The notes beneath the pieces are model-generated. The model saw nothing but the letters and a program-made list of their open reading frames with translations, ran no database searches and was not told where the DNA came from. Position numbers and translations under genes: made by a program. From positions 372,001 to 436,000 of the forward strand of contig NZ_LN831051.1 in the NCBI RefSeq assembly GCF_001457635.1: a DNA stretch of 64,000 nt. The letters are read 5' to 3'. Source of the DNA: Streptococcus pneumoniae. Its GTDB lineage: Bacteria > Bacillota > Bacilli > Lactobacillales > Streptococcaceae. Below, piece by piece: positions 4,329 through 59,659 of the stretch (position 1 is its first letter; each line of letters opens with the position of its first letter).

Positions 4329-4437
4329 AAAAGGATTATACCACATTGTGTACTATTTTTGGTTCATTTTACTATATCACTTTGGACTATATCGGTCTAG
4401 TTATGTCTAAACGATTATAGCTGGATACTAAGAGAAA

Positions 4438-4474
4438 TCAAAAAAGCACTAAAGGAGAACGTCCCAAAGTGCTT
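4438..4474 (-). terminator. rpsD terminator
   Basis: On the minus strand AAGCACT and AGTGCTT form a stem, extended inside by GGGA/TCTCC-type pairs, followed by a T run (TTTTTTGATTT). It starts about 40 bp after the rpsD stop. Confidence 0.85.
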
Positions 4475-4513
4475 AATATCAAGGCCTCAAAGCCTGTCTT
4501 ATTCAATAAAATA

Positions 4514-26353: not shown

Positions 26354-30421
<4,068 letters not shown>

Positions 30422-32073: not shown

Positions 32074-33165
32074 CTAAAAATCAATCCCTTCCCCAAACTC
32101 TTCCACACTATCCGGTACATCACTAAACAAAGTCACATGTCCCATCTTACGATTATGCTTTGCTTCTATTTTACCATACATGTGGAGGTGGGTGCTTGGA
32201 TTTTCTGTGACATATTTTTCAGCGGCCTCAACATGCTGGCCGAGAACGTTAAGCATGACGGCAGGCGCATGTAGTTTGATGGCTGGCAATGGTGCTCCCA
32301 GAACACCTAATATATGCGTGTCAAATTGTGAAAAGTCACAGGCTTCAATAGAGTAGTGGCCTGAGTTGTGTGGTCGTGGAGCAATCTCATTGACAATGAT
32401 GTCATCAGCTGTCGCAAACATTTCCACACAGAGAGTTCCAGACAAGTTGAGTTGTTCTGCGATTCGCACTGCCATAGCTTTAGCCTTGTCTGCTAGACTT
32501 TCAGAAATACGGGCTGGTACGATGGTCTTAGACAGGATATTGTTGCGGTGGATATTTTCCTGAACTGGGAAAAACGTCACCTCCTTCCCATTTCCTGACA
32601 CGATGACAGAAATCTCAAGGTCAAAATTGACAAATTCTTCCAAGACACAAGCTGCTGAGTCGGCTAATGCATAGGCTTCTTCCAAATCGTCTGCTGAACG
32701 AATGACATTTTGCCCGTGTCCATCATAACCACCTGTTGCGATCTTAAGGACATAGTTTTTCGACAAGTCGATATCTGCCAAGTCTAGGCTAGAAGTCACG
32801 ACCTTGTAGGGTGCCACAGTGACTTGAGCCTTGTTTGACAAAAAGTCCTTTTCAAAAATACGATTTTGCGAAATGCGGAGCAGATCTGTTCCTTGAGGGA
32901 GTTGTCCATCCTTGATAACGACATCCAAACCGTCAGCGTCGACATTTTCAAACTCGTAAGTGAGGACATCGCAACGGTCTGCCAACTGACGGAGGGCGTC
33001 CACATCGTTATAAGGTGCCACAATGATTTCCGCCACGCGAGAGGCCGGGCAATCCGCCGCAGGATCCAGCGCGATAACCTTGTGCCCCATGTAGATAGCA
33101 GAAATGGCCATCATCTGACCCAGTTGACCGCCACCGATAATTCCGATTGTTTTAGATGAGCTCAT
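32074..33165 (-). CDS. purK: N5-carboxyaminoimidazole ribonucleotide synthetase
   Basis: 363 residues, ATP-grasp enzyme converting AIR, bicarbonate and ATP to N5-CAIR. N-terminal [17 protein letters not shown] (about 7-23). ATP-grasp motifs include [13 protein letters not shown] (about 143-155), [18 protein letters not shown] and [17 protein letters not shown] (about 264-280). The ATG overlaps purE by 14 bp, the usual purEK coupling. Confidence 0.97.
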
Positions 33166-33640
33166 TTGACGACTCCTCTGCGATTTTTCCTTGTTCTTCT
33201 GCGAAATCTGCCAATGCTGTCGCGATAGACTGATCCTCTACTGAGAGGAGACGGAGAGCGAAGAGGGCCGCATTTGTCGCACCTGCTTCACCGATAGCCA
33301 TGGTCGCAACAGGCACCCCACCCGGCATCTGAACGATAGAATAGAGTGAATCCACTCCACTAAGAGCACGAGAGTTGACTGGCACACCAATGACTGGAAG
33401 GATTGTTTTAGCAGCGACCATACCTGGCAAATGGGCTGCGCCACCAGCACCTGCGATGATGATCTTGATGCCACGGCTACGGGCTTCTTCTGCATGTTTG
33501 AACATGAGGTCTGGTGTACGGTGTGCGGAAACAACTTTCTTTTCGTAGGCTACACCGAAGCGGTCTAGGACTTCTGCTGTTTTTTGCATGGTTGCCCAGT
33601 CGGATTTTGAGCCCATGATGATGGAAATTACTGGTTTCAT
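33152..33640 (-). CDS. purE: N5-CAIR mutase (PurE, class I)
   Basis: 162 residues from [15 protein letters not shown], with AAGGAG upstream; 11 extra codons of open frame upstream are rejected. It converts N5-CAIR to CAIR. Class I motifs: GSKSDWATM (about 9-17), SAHRTPD (about 40-46), [12 protein letters not shown] (about 66-77). The gene begins 26 nt after the second of two structured elements that fill the purD-purE gap. Confidence 0.97.
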
Positions 33641-33666
33641 TTCTTCTCCTTTTTCCTCTTTTTCAA

Positions 33667-33800
33667 CAATCACCTTAGCTTGTGAGGGACGGCAGCAGCC
33701 ACCAAAGGTGTCTCATGCCTAAATTGGAAACCCAAGGTCTTCCAATTTCCCTGAACGATTGGATTATCATCCAATCGTTCTTTCACAACGGCGGTAATTG
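33667..33800 (-). ncRNA. Structured RNA candidate, purE-proximal module of a tandem pair
   Basis: 134 nt. Outer stem 33793-33800 with 33667-33674 (minus-strand CAATTACC/GGTGATTG; one G-U pair on the minus strand would be a C-A mismatch on plus). Inner stem TTGTGA/TCACAA (33783-33788 with 33680-33685). A 12-bp perfect hairpin (33753-33780) follows, then a 9-bp hairpin (33721-33748) with loop GACCTTGGG, and a small CACC/GGTG hairpin (33700-33710). Linkers AGGGAAA and TTTAGGCATGAGAC are shared with the upstream module. The 3' edge is about 12 nt from the purE ribosome site. Not a riboswitch class I recognise. Confidence 0.65.
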
Positions 33801-33874
33801 CTCCATATTAGCTCGCTAACGCTCGCAAACCATACGACCATTAACGTATTTTGTGAATTTTTATTTTTCTTTTT

Positions 33875-34007
33875 GATAATGGTCTTAGGTGATGGAGGCG
33901 GAAGCAAACCTTCGGTTTCATTCCTAAACTTTGAGCCTAAGGTCTCAAAGTTTCCCCCTGACCAGAACATTCACTGTTCTGGTCTTTTCACCACGACGAC
34001 CATTATC
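33875..34007 (-). ncRNA. Structured RNA candidate, purD-proximal module of a tandem pair
   Basis: 133 nt with the same plan as the other module but different stems. Outer 10-bp stem GATAATGGTC/GACCATTATC (33998-34007 with 33875-33884). Inner GGTGA/TCACC. A 9-bp hairpin GACCAGAAC/GTTCTGGTC (33960-33984), a 10-bp hairpin (33926-33953) with loop ACCTTAGG, and a small AAACC/GGTTT hairpin. Shared linkers are AGGGGGAAA and TTTAGGAATGAAAC. Further small hairpins (GCGAC/GTCGC at 34015-34027) lie towards purD. The 33801-33874 spacer holds an A/T-rich stretch and an ATACG/CGTAT hairpin. Confidence 0.65.
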
Positions 34008-34042
34008 GTGTTTGGCGACTGCGTCGCGTTATTCTTATATCT

Positions 34043-35305
34043 TTACTTAATTGCCTTGCTTCCGATATCTGTTCGGTAGAAGAGTCCTTCTATTTTTTGT
34101 TGGGATAGTTCTTGGTAGATGCTGGCTTGGGCTTCTTTGACGGTATCTGCTGTGGTAACGAGCATATAAACTCGTCCGCCGTTTGAGAGCAGCGCTCTGC
34201 TATTTTCCGCAAACTTAGCCCCTGCATAGTAGGTAATGATGTCACCATCGGTTTTGACTGGCAACTCAACACCCTTTGAATAATCTAGCGGGTAGCCCTT
34301 GGATGCGACAACCACACCCAGAGTCACACCCTTGTCCGTCCACGTGATATTTGGCTCCTTGCTATCCAGGATATCTGTGATATTTTGAGCAAAGTCAGAG
34401 GTCAAGCGAGGCAAGATAATCTGAGTTTCTGGATCTCCGAACCGAGCGTTGAACTCGATGACTTTCGGTCCATCAGCTGTCAGGATAAGCCCTGCGTAAA
34501 GAACTCCCAGATAAGGGCGACCTTCTTTAATCATCCCTTCTAGAACTGGCTTGACAATGGTGTCAACCGCTGTATCAACTACACTCTGTGGTAAGTGTGG
34601 AACTGGCGCATAGGCACCCATACCACCCGTGTTAGGCCCTTTGTCGCCATCGTAGGCACGTTTGTGGTCCTGAGCCGTTGGCATGATGTAGAACTTATCA
34701 CCATTGACAAAGGCAAAGAGTGAAAATTCCTCTCCTTCAAGGAATTCCTCAATAACCACGCGCGCACCTGAGTCACCAAATTTATTGTCCAAAAGCATCT
34801 CATGAGCGGCTTCGACCGCTTGCTCAACCGTCTCAGCAACGACGACACCCTTCCCAAGCGCCAAGCCATCCGCCTTGACTACGATAGGCGCACCATGCTT
34901 TTCGATATAGGCCTTTGCTTCCTCAAAATCTGAAAATGTGCCATAGGCTGCTGTCGAAACACCATATTTGACCATGATTTCCTTGGCAAAATCCTTGGAC
35001 CACTCCAGCTCCGCTGCAGCCCTAGTCGGACCAAAGGCCTTAAGCCCAGCTTGGTTAAAATCATCCACGATACCAGCAGCAAGGGCATCATCTGGGCCGA
35101 TAAAGGTCCAAGCAACATCATTGGTCTTTGCGAAGTCAATCAATTTAGAATGTTCGGAAATAGAGATATTTACCAATTCCAAACCATCCAGAGTCATCCC
35201 ATCATTCCCAGGAGCTACAAAGACTTTTTCCACGTCTTTTGATTCAAGTAACTTTTTAGCAATCGCATGCTCACGACCACCAGAACCGACAACAAGCAGT
35301 TTCAT
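34043..35305 (-). CDS. purD: Phosphoribosylamine-glycine ligase (GARS)
   Basis: 420 residues, normal single-domain bacterial GARS, ATP-grasp. N-terminal MKLLVVGSGGREHAIAKKL; IVKADGLALGKGVVVA (about 140-155) and RFGDPETQIILPRL (about 288-301) are the family signature. It joins glycine to phosphoribosylamine. GAGG lies before the ATG. It has its own probable promoter after a terminator-like stem that follows purH. Confidence 0.97.
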   Translation of the reverse strand: MKLLVVGSGGREHAIAKKLLESKDVEKVFVAPGNDGMTLDGLELVNISISEHSKLIDFAKTNDVAWTFIGPDDALAAGIVDDFNQAGLKAFGPTRAAAELEWSKDFAKEIMVKYGVSTAAYGTFSDFEEAKAYIEKHGAPIVVKADGLALGKGVVVAETVEQAVEAAHEMLLDNKFGDSGARVVIEEFLEGEEFSLFAFVNGDKFYIMPTAQDHKRAYDGDKGPNTGGMGAYAPVPHLPQSVVDTAVDTIVKPVLEGMIKEGRPYLGVLYAGLILTADGPKVIEFNARFGDPETQIILPRLTSDFAQNITDILDSKEPNITWTDKGVTLGVVVASKGYPLDYSKGVELPVKTDGDIITYYAGAKFAENSRALLSNGGRVYMLVTTADTVKEAQASIYQELSQQKIEGLFYRTDIGSKAIK

Positions 35306-59536: not shown

Positions 59537-59585
59537 GGCTCCATAATATCCATAGTGGGTAAATCCCCTATGGATATTATGGAGC
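59537..59585. repeat. 19-bp perfect inverted repeat at the end of an ISL3-type element
   Basis: GGCTCCATAATATCCATAG and CTATGGATATTATGGAGCC with an 11-base loop. It lies between the broken nuclease gene and the transposase fragment. It could be the terminal region of the insertion sequence and can also act as a terminator (TATTTTG follows). Confidence 0.7.
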
Positions 59586-59659
59586 CTATTTTGTGTAGAA
59601 AAAAAGTCCCATATGACCTATAATGAAAAGCGACAAAACAACTCATTAGAAAGAATCAT

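Follow-up and report, generated by a model that had tools for sequence, protein, structure and literature searches.

In Streptococcus pneumoniae, the BOX, RUP and SPRITE sequences are small, dispersed, intergenic and foldable, and they are thought to be mobile and non-autonomous (PMC3049150). SPRITE resembles terminators and consists of an 18-bp stem with a U-rich tract, at 28% GC. The consulted portion of that source describes all three as almost absent outside the pneumococcus and S. mitis, with relatives of BOX in S. suis. Insertion sequences of the IS1202 family, which has streptococcal members, generate long target duplications of 27 bp for IS1202 and 28 bp for ISSeq2 (PMC10132070). A structured-RNA screen counted 250 mobile or repeat candidates, among them candidates of the MRSC-65-2 type, which occur in many copies per genome, covary, are inconsistent in orientation and are possibly relevant as DNA (PMC11109978). 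SSRC8 of S. pyogenes has been described as a small RNA with Northern signals and RACE-mapped ends (PMC3675131). Rfam lists the corresponding family, RF02616 (SSRC8_2), under sRNA genes and not under repeats, and the consulted part of the source paper likewise treats it as an sRNA gene.

The present analysis concerns a window of 64,000 nt of S. pneumoniae in which the gap between purD and purE holds two structured sequences, copies A and B. These are probably tandem, resident short-form copies of a streptococcal family of non-autonomous mobile elements that is defined by its conserved fold, about 136 nt long. The family shares the size, dispersal, intergenic placement and foldability of BOX, RUP and SPRITE. 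It is set apart from them, by their descriptions, through its six to seven helices and its genus-wide occurrence, and from MRSC-65-2, which has a single long stem with UYCCGG (PMC11109978). It may nevertheless be among the 250 candidates of that screen, and so possibly has been seen before. No description of it as a dispersed element was found in the literature searched, which covered few subscription papers and no supplements.

Two structured domains between purD and purE

The minus-strand genes of the window read, from their translations, as purH, purD, purE, purK and purB. The gap between the purD and purE reading frames is 369 nt as listed, or 402 nt to the purE ATG, and is mostly taken up by copies A and B, which are co-directional with both genes. 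The features of the region are as follows, from the purD side to the purE side.

34043-35305, minus strand: purD, the upstream gene, named from its translation
34015-34027, minus strand: P0, a small hairpin GCGAC-GCA-GTCGC directly upstream of copy A
33875-34007, minus strand: core domain of copy A, on the purD side, read from the sequence, the fold and a six-copy alignment; P1 GATAATGGTC/GACCATTATC, internal loop GTC/CTAA, P2, hairpin P3, P4 of 3 bp, hairpin P5 with ACC-TTA-GG, then hairpin P6
33830-33849, minus strand: stretch TACGTTAATGGTCG, similar to an A-type unit's 5' arm, ahead of the copy B leader
33811-33826, minus strand: P0 of copy B, the leader motif GCGAGCGTTAGCGAGC on its upstream side
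33667-33800, minus strand: copy B, on the purE side, with the fold of copy A and other stems; P1 CAATTACC/GGTGATTG
33152-33640, minus strand: purE from the ATG at 33640, 26 nt from copy B to the ATG

The list of open reading frames puts the purE start at a GTG at 33673, and copy B overlaps this longer frame by 7 nt. Elsewhere in the window, positions 59537-59647 and 4433-4512, both on the minus strand, match the streptococcal sRNAs Srn266 and SpF01 in Rfam, and positions 26399-30421 of the plus strand encode a large protein with an LPETG-like end and, by eye, two similar glycosidase-like halves.

With short flanks, copy A reaches a minimum free energy of -64.7 kcal/mol (z -7.67) and copy B one of -62.1 kcal/mol (z -6.91), none of 200 shuffles being as good in either case. 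The whole gap folds into two separate domains, A and B. The preliminary description of this DNA had reported two sequences with one fold here, whose outer and inner stems vary on both strands, and that observation of a tandem, structured and compensating fold is confirmed; its interpretation is partly supported. Two details differ. The segments AGGG and TTTAGGMATGARAC, taken there for single-stranded linkers, are mostly paired: AGGG pairs with a later CCC/CCT as the 3-bp helix P4, and TTTAGGMATGARAC comprises the end of one hairpin and the start of the next. The inner stem drawn for copy A, GGTGA/TCACC, is present in the minimum free energy fold, whereas the family alignment favors GTGGTG/CATCAC, which leaves the internal loop GTC/CTAA.

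A conserved fold with compensating changes

The consensus was drawn from six copies of the same genome, the structure was then refined, and these six copies became the training rows of the covariance model R1. P1 spans 8-10 bp and is unlike in sequence in all six. It is followed by an internal loop of GCC (GTC in copy A) opposite YUAA, the latter side being one base shorter in copy D, and by P2, a helix of 6-7 bp with mostly GU at its start and AC at its end. P3, a hairpin with no fixed sequence, is absent from copies E and G, and P4 has 3 bp. The tip of P5 is near-constant (GAGACC-YTA-GGCTC), and P6 mostly carries GGNATG...GCTNCC. Similar constant spots appear in a weighted consensus of 43 clusters, from which the reverse-strand matches of L116 and L118 and the recombinant row L097:834-968 were left out. 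Copies G, H and I carry long inserts within P5 or P6.

The family alignment was built from 90 sources, with overlapping own-genome loci, repeat or near-repeat loci and L100 left out, and the covariation count covers 113 rows, 102 of them distinct and one a reverse-strand match. Over the distinct rows, standard pairs fill 94.8% of cells against 68.5% after shuffling, both sides change in 45 of 50 pairs, and none of 500 shuffles reaches any of the five measures; because the alignment was fitted to the model, these figures lean towards structure. Shifting the partner by one column lowers pairing to 48-49%. An arm-swap test, which depends less on the alignment and omits the reverse-strand matches of L116 and L118, gave a similar picture for 14 P1 types differing at four or more of nine positions. 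Own arms paired at 8.86 of 9 positions on average and swapped arms at 4.59, with single swapped pairs reaching 9 of 9. Within the set of purE upstream regions alone (24 rows, one of them, from L096, on the reverse strand), 30 of 50 pairs change on both sides.

Compensating change, which two sequences could suggest weakly, is thus strong across 102 rows. Chance or decay is rejected on the fold z-scores together with the covariation. The alternative offered in the preliminary description, a decayed mobile hairpin pair, came close in its mobile part; "decayed" does not fit, because 89-99% of cells are paired in each of the seven helices.

Relation to the SSRC8_2 family

At gathering thresholds, Rfam reports neither window copy. 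At a loose threshold, copies A and B match RF02616 with E-values of 5.7e-11 and 3.5e-8; their scores, 44.0 bits for model positions 138-242 and 35.2 bits for positions 152-209, lie below the cut-off of 72. Of five full-length units scanned, all of the terminator type, three pass the cut-off over positions 1-281 (L064 with 75.5, L230 with 74.9 and L227 with 72.7 bits), and the other two fall below it (L042 with 64.1 bits over positions 134-246, and L007 with 50.0). Copies G (L022) and H (L029) of the own genome gave no RF02616 match at E<=0.01. The window copies match the P5-P6 part of RF02616 below the cut-off, and three of the five full-length units match the model end to end. RF02616 is the same family as the element between purD and purE.

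Dispersal in Streptococcus and Granulicatella

Model R1 finds the core at nine places in the own genome, with 150 of 229 candidates scored and six of the nine being training rows. Copy A is the best match at 131.9 bits and copy B scores 113.2 bits, both as training rows. The places outside the window lie as follows, with gene names given by eye.

897 kb: own-genome copy
1008 kb: copy before a yhbY-like gene
1034 kb: copy between convergent genes
1248 kb: copy between glyQ-like and glyS-like genes
2070 kb: copy antisense between infB-like and rbfA-like genes
2092 kb: copy beside repeats that we take to be BOX
2096 kb: copy before a dnaK-like gene

The 1248 kb copy is the weakest with R1 (E 0.0055 over 28 positions), yet gave a full-length match of 59 bits in another search.

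Within Streptococcus, 256 of 284 genomes match at E<=0.01, with at most 11 candidates scored per genome. Ten genomes picked by choice were counted fully: six chosen as high-copy hold 48, 47, 46, 41, 37 and 35 copies, and four others searched alike hold 8, 6, 6 and 4. Across the order, 71 of 395 genomes match, in three of 80 genera, the third genus with one or two weak matches per genome only. In Granulicatella, at least 47 and at least 118 matches were found in two genomes with 150 candidates scored, and a single weak match in a third. The richest of these, identified by identical 60-mers, is Granulicatella elegans ATCC 700633, where some copies follow one another head to tail and recur about every 180 nt. 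The family therefore has multiple dispersed copies per genome, as mobile interspersed elements do.

Orientation relative to neighboring genes is variable, with gene directions taken from the longest nearby open reading frame; such calls are fallible, the left gene at the dnaK-like copy having been called on the strand opposite to that suggested by its place. In a set of 38 rows (Granulicatella loci L101-L130, with three rows from the third genus), 16 begin 7-13 nt past the stop codon of the neighboring gene, antisense to the modelled strand. This position suggests a role in the 3'-UTR or a landing rule.

This distribution bears directly on one reading that the preliminary description found attractive, a riboswitch-like tandem sensor, which here would respond to a ligand of the purine pathway. 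The tandem arrangement, the complex fold, the conserved internal loop GCC/YUAA and the place in a pur operon all speak for such a sensor. Against it, the core lies at nine places in its own genome; the fold stands before dnaK-, glyS- and yhbY-like genes, antisense between infB-like and rbfA-like genes, and between duplicated terminators; G. elegans alone has at least 118 copies. Moreover, Rfam gives no riboswitch match at E<=10 for positions 33500-34200, in agreement with the earlier statement that the motifs match no purine, ZTP, glycine, TPP, SAM, PRPP or T-box consensus. A purine riboswitch is rejected, since copies also lie beside unrelated genes and show no consistent link to purine genes, and we regard a tandem sensor of purines or PRPP as very improbable. 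The same description had named a known repeat family scattered genome-wide as an outcome that would count against it; the copies are scattered and RF02616 matches them, although Rfam files that family as an sRNA. An origin from phages or viruses was also rejected on limited tests, with no match of the window region to phage records and none of one exact pattern to viral contigs.

Full-length units and flanking terminators

In the high-copy genomes, the full-length unit is about 250 bp long and comprises a leader of about 90 nt, the core and a further 25 nt or so ending near TTTGTCTTCAATCTG. No gene was seen in it. The unit ends are imperfect inverted repeats, read by eye as TG[TA]AGACAAA and its complement, and in genome G136 they are about AGGTTGAAGACAAAC and GACTTTGTCTATACTCTG. 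A terminator marks the end of many full-length units.

For 24 units, picked by choice and including some loci shared by several species, the match between the two flanks was scored against swapped partners. In 12 of the 24, a local intrinsic-terminator hairpin stands on both sides, the own flanks ranking first against 23 swapped partners with a score of at least 13; the other 12 have no clear duplication. Own flanks score 12.9 on average and swapped flanks 7.6, the largest swapped score being 20. The repeats of the 12 duplicated units measure 13-33 bp; between the end of the left copy and P1 there are 84-100 nt, and the right copy starts 22-32 nt past P1'. The repeat is perfect over 26 bp at L060 and matches at 29 of 30 positions at the 1034 kb copy of the own genome. 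The hairpin copies of six units (L064, L068, L069, L230, L232 and L233) match better inverted than direct, which counts against a simple target-site duplication because such a duplication does not predict inversion.

The leader of one unit, sought in 13 genomes, was found in G136 only, at seven places with 84-100% identity. Of these loci, five have the hairpin on both sides, one on the right side only, and one is interrupted. No transposase-sized version was seen in the stretches of about 420 nt read around the G136 copies, the insert at L231 aside. At L231 (G136:C18:175813-175899), unrelated sequence that carries another hairpin interrupts P3 of the core, and at L232 a longer P6 replaces the usual one. 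One locus offers an empty site: it holds a single terminator in G066 and is occupied in G078. Among 23 other genomes matched there, the same single terminator was found in G066 only, and the rest have other terminators or inserts.

The duplication is absent from window copies A and B, with flank scores of 7 and 9, and from five other own-genome copies. Among the eight own-genome control copies (A, B and D to I), a repeat occurs only at D; it is not a terminator and is presumably BOX on both sides. None of 17 Granulicatella copies examined has the duplication. The window copies are short forms without unit ends or flanking duplication.

These flanks also bear on an sRNA reading. The copies could spread otherwise than by transposition, for example as sRNA genes, and the family might be one of trans-acting small RNAs as SSRC8 was described, each paralogue with its own terminator. 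Its identity with RF02616, the Northern and RACE data for SSRC8 (consulted part of PMC3675131) and the many full-length units that terminate at a terminator are in line with this. However, at 12 of 24 loci the two terminators beside the unit are more similar to one another than to the terminators of other loci, which paralogous sRNA genes would not produce, and copies also lie inside operons and antisense. We therefore consider a family of sRNA paralogues unlikely.

Sites of this kind also harbor another dispersed sequence (GAGGCTGGGACAAAAGTCCTAGCCTCTCAATT...), the ends of which are terminator-like. It was seen at L132 and L133 (genomes G006 and G165), downstream of the gene used in the empty-site comparison, and in the downstream flank of L065 and L066; two of these cases are at the locus where another species has an SSRC8_2-like element.

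Comparison with IS1202-type insertion sequences

No transposase or other parent was found for the element. An IS1202-type parent, or an origin as an IS1202-family MITE, was examined and rejected. The family NF033594, which presumably covers IS1202, a reading with which the 28-bp duplication agrees, has a transposase above cut-off in four of 197 Streptococcus genomes, one of them with an internal stop. Of five copies read together with their flanks, three are bordered by direct repeats (28, 23 and 19 bp), and the other two lack convincing ones. The copies of G038 and G012 have ends and duplicated targets unlike those of the SSRC8_2-like unit, which itself shows no transposase; the G038 insertion sequences begin TGTTATCATTCGAAAG, while full-length units begin near TGTAGACAAA. 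At L206 (G038:C1:396794-397960), an IS1202-type insertion sequence lies inside a sequence that carries GACCATTATC and CCTAAGGCTCAA and that resembles, by eye, scrambled parts of the family.

The purD-purE site in other Streptococcus genomes

A PurE match was found in 268 of 279 Streptococcus genomes. The regions upstream of purE were taken from 20 other genomes, chosen among the best-scoring matches, so that the counts below describe this choice and not the genus. At least one copy is present in 19 of the 20, always co-directional with purE, and two of the 19 hold tandem copies, as the window does. The nearest copy ends 15-30 nt before the purE start in 18 regions and 168 nt before it in L099. 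The one region without a copy, L100, has an upstream gene that is not clearly purD. L099 and L100 have in common a hairpin-rich looking stretch (GGGACTAAATCCCTAGG...) in the last 250 nt before purE, which gave no Rfam match at E<=0.01.

Copies at this site fall into three unlike types. Near variants of the copy A P0 hairpin precede the copy in eight of ten A-type regions (by eye), and the motif GCGAGCGTTAGCGAGC also stands ahead of the B-type copies of L082, L083 and L085. Upstream of B-type copies lies a stretch resembling the start of an A-type unit, read by eye in the window and in the related regions L082, L083, L086 and L098; as judged from the sequence, it is possibly a sign of unit-by-unit turnover. 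In row L097, a B-type 5' arm is joined to an A-type 3' arm and P1 is broken. Given the three unlike types, the A-like stretches and the hybrid row, the site is old and its units have been exchanged.

SP0051 of S. pneumoniae TIGR4 is presumably purD. A transcript of 122 nt, SN47, is placed between SP0051 and SP0052 of that strain, and is known here by its listed position (PMC2887815). Such a transcript is in line with copies that act in cis as RNA of the purine operon, as domains kept by selection that would tune mRNA stability, processing or purE translation. The presence of a copy in the direction of purE in 19 of 20 upstream regions points the same way. On the other side stand the three unlike types, the broken P1 of the L097 hybrid and the missing copy of L100. 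Elsewhere, the fold has no common gene theme, and the regions were chosen by hand. Taken with the wobble counts below, a selected cis-acting role is doubtful, although it has some evidence behind it.

Selection at the RNA or the DNA level

If RNA pairing is selected, the transcribed strand should show more G-U than A-C. Forty of the 50 pairs are at least 93% paired; in these, wobble and A-C events number 43 to 38 (p 0.66), and over all 50 pairs 66 to 46 (p 0.07). The SRP RNA of the genus, used as a control over 12 pairs with 27 of 30 loci aligned (L161, L173 and L176 out), gave 21 to 0 cells. The wobble counts exclude the reverse-strand matches of L116 and L118, and the split by orientation also excludes L097:834-968.

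By likely direction of transcription, sense copies have 19 to 6, antisense copies 13 to 13, copies with both kinds of neighbor 9 to 7, and copies with no near gene 2 to 9. The comparison of sense and antisense gives a Fisher p of 0.083 on small numbers, with the split made after the total had been seen. Among the sense copies, those between purD and purE contribute 13 to 4 (p 0.049), as expected if the RNA strand matters there, and other sense copies 6 to 2; this division by site was likewise post hoc. Keeping L097 changes the purD-purE figure to 15 to 7 (p 0.13). Granulicatella copies have 14 to 24.

The flat total, set beside the SRP RNA, invites the reading that the fold is maintained at the DNA level only, without a function as RNA, for instance as a hairpin or cruciform for a recombinase, or through templated correction from arm to arm. 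The excess of wobble in sense copies and its absence from antisense ones run counter to it. We do not take the flat total as a sign of DNA, because mixed strands may explain the flatness. Maintenance as DNA alone is accordingly a possibility to be taken seriously, though we lean against it.

A probable non-autonomous mobile element

The family is best read as a mobile, non-autonomous element, given that its copies are dispersed, vary in orientation, include near-identical ones at separate loci and in many cases lie between duplicated hairpins. For the window copies, mobility is deduced from their relatives, because these short forms have neither unit ends nor flanking duplication.

Under the mechanism we propose, the unit would spread by insertion at intrinsic terminators, and the cut may span the terminator hairpin so as to leave a hairpin on both sides. 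The fold, either as single-stranded DNA or as a transcript, would be recognized by the mobilizing machinery. The copies between purD and purE are presumably transcribed with the operon and would form two compact domains ahead of the purE ribosome-binding site. They are probably old, with units that turn over, and any putative effect on purE expression would be secondary.

A bolder version, which we consider improbable but worth stating, is a transposing element without genes whose ticket is a complex fold in place of a terminal sequence. Its target would also be a fold, the intrinsic terminator, with a stagger that spans the hairpin, so that a hairpin of any length would come to flank the unit on each side. 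Both in Granulicatella and in streptococcal operons, the element would have been kept as a standard RNA domain at 3' ends or between genes.

Implications

In the searches made, Rfam covers the family through the sRNA family SSRC8_2 alone, despite its presence in 256 of 284 Streptococcus genomes. Some genomes hold dozens to more than 100 copies of this structured non-coding family. Since it touches the 3' ends of many genes and the gaps of operons, it bears on the annotation of termination and read-through in commensals and pathogens of humans. Insertion at terminators under the direction of structure, if true, would be an unusual form of transposition, and the size and variability of the family suffice for a test of it.
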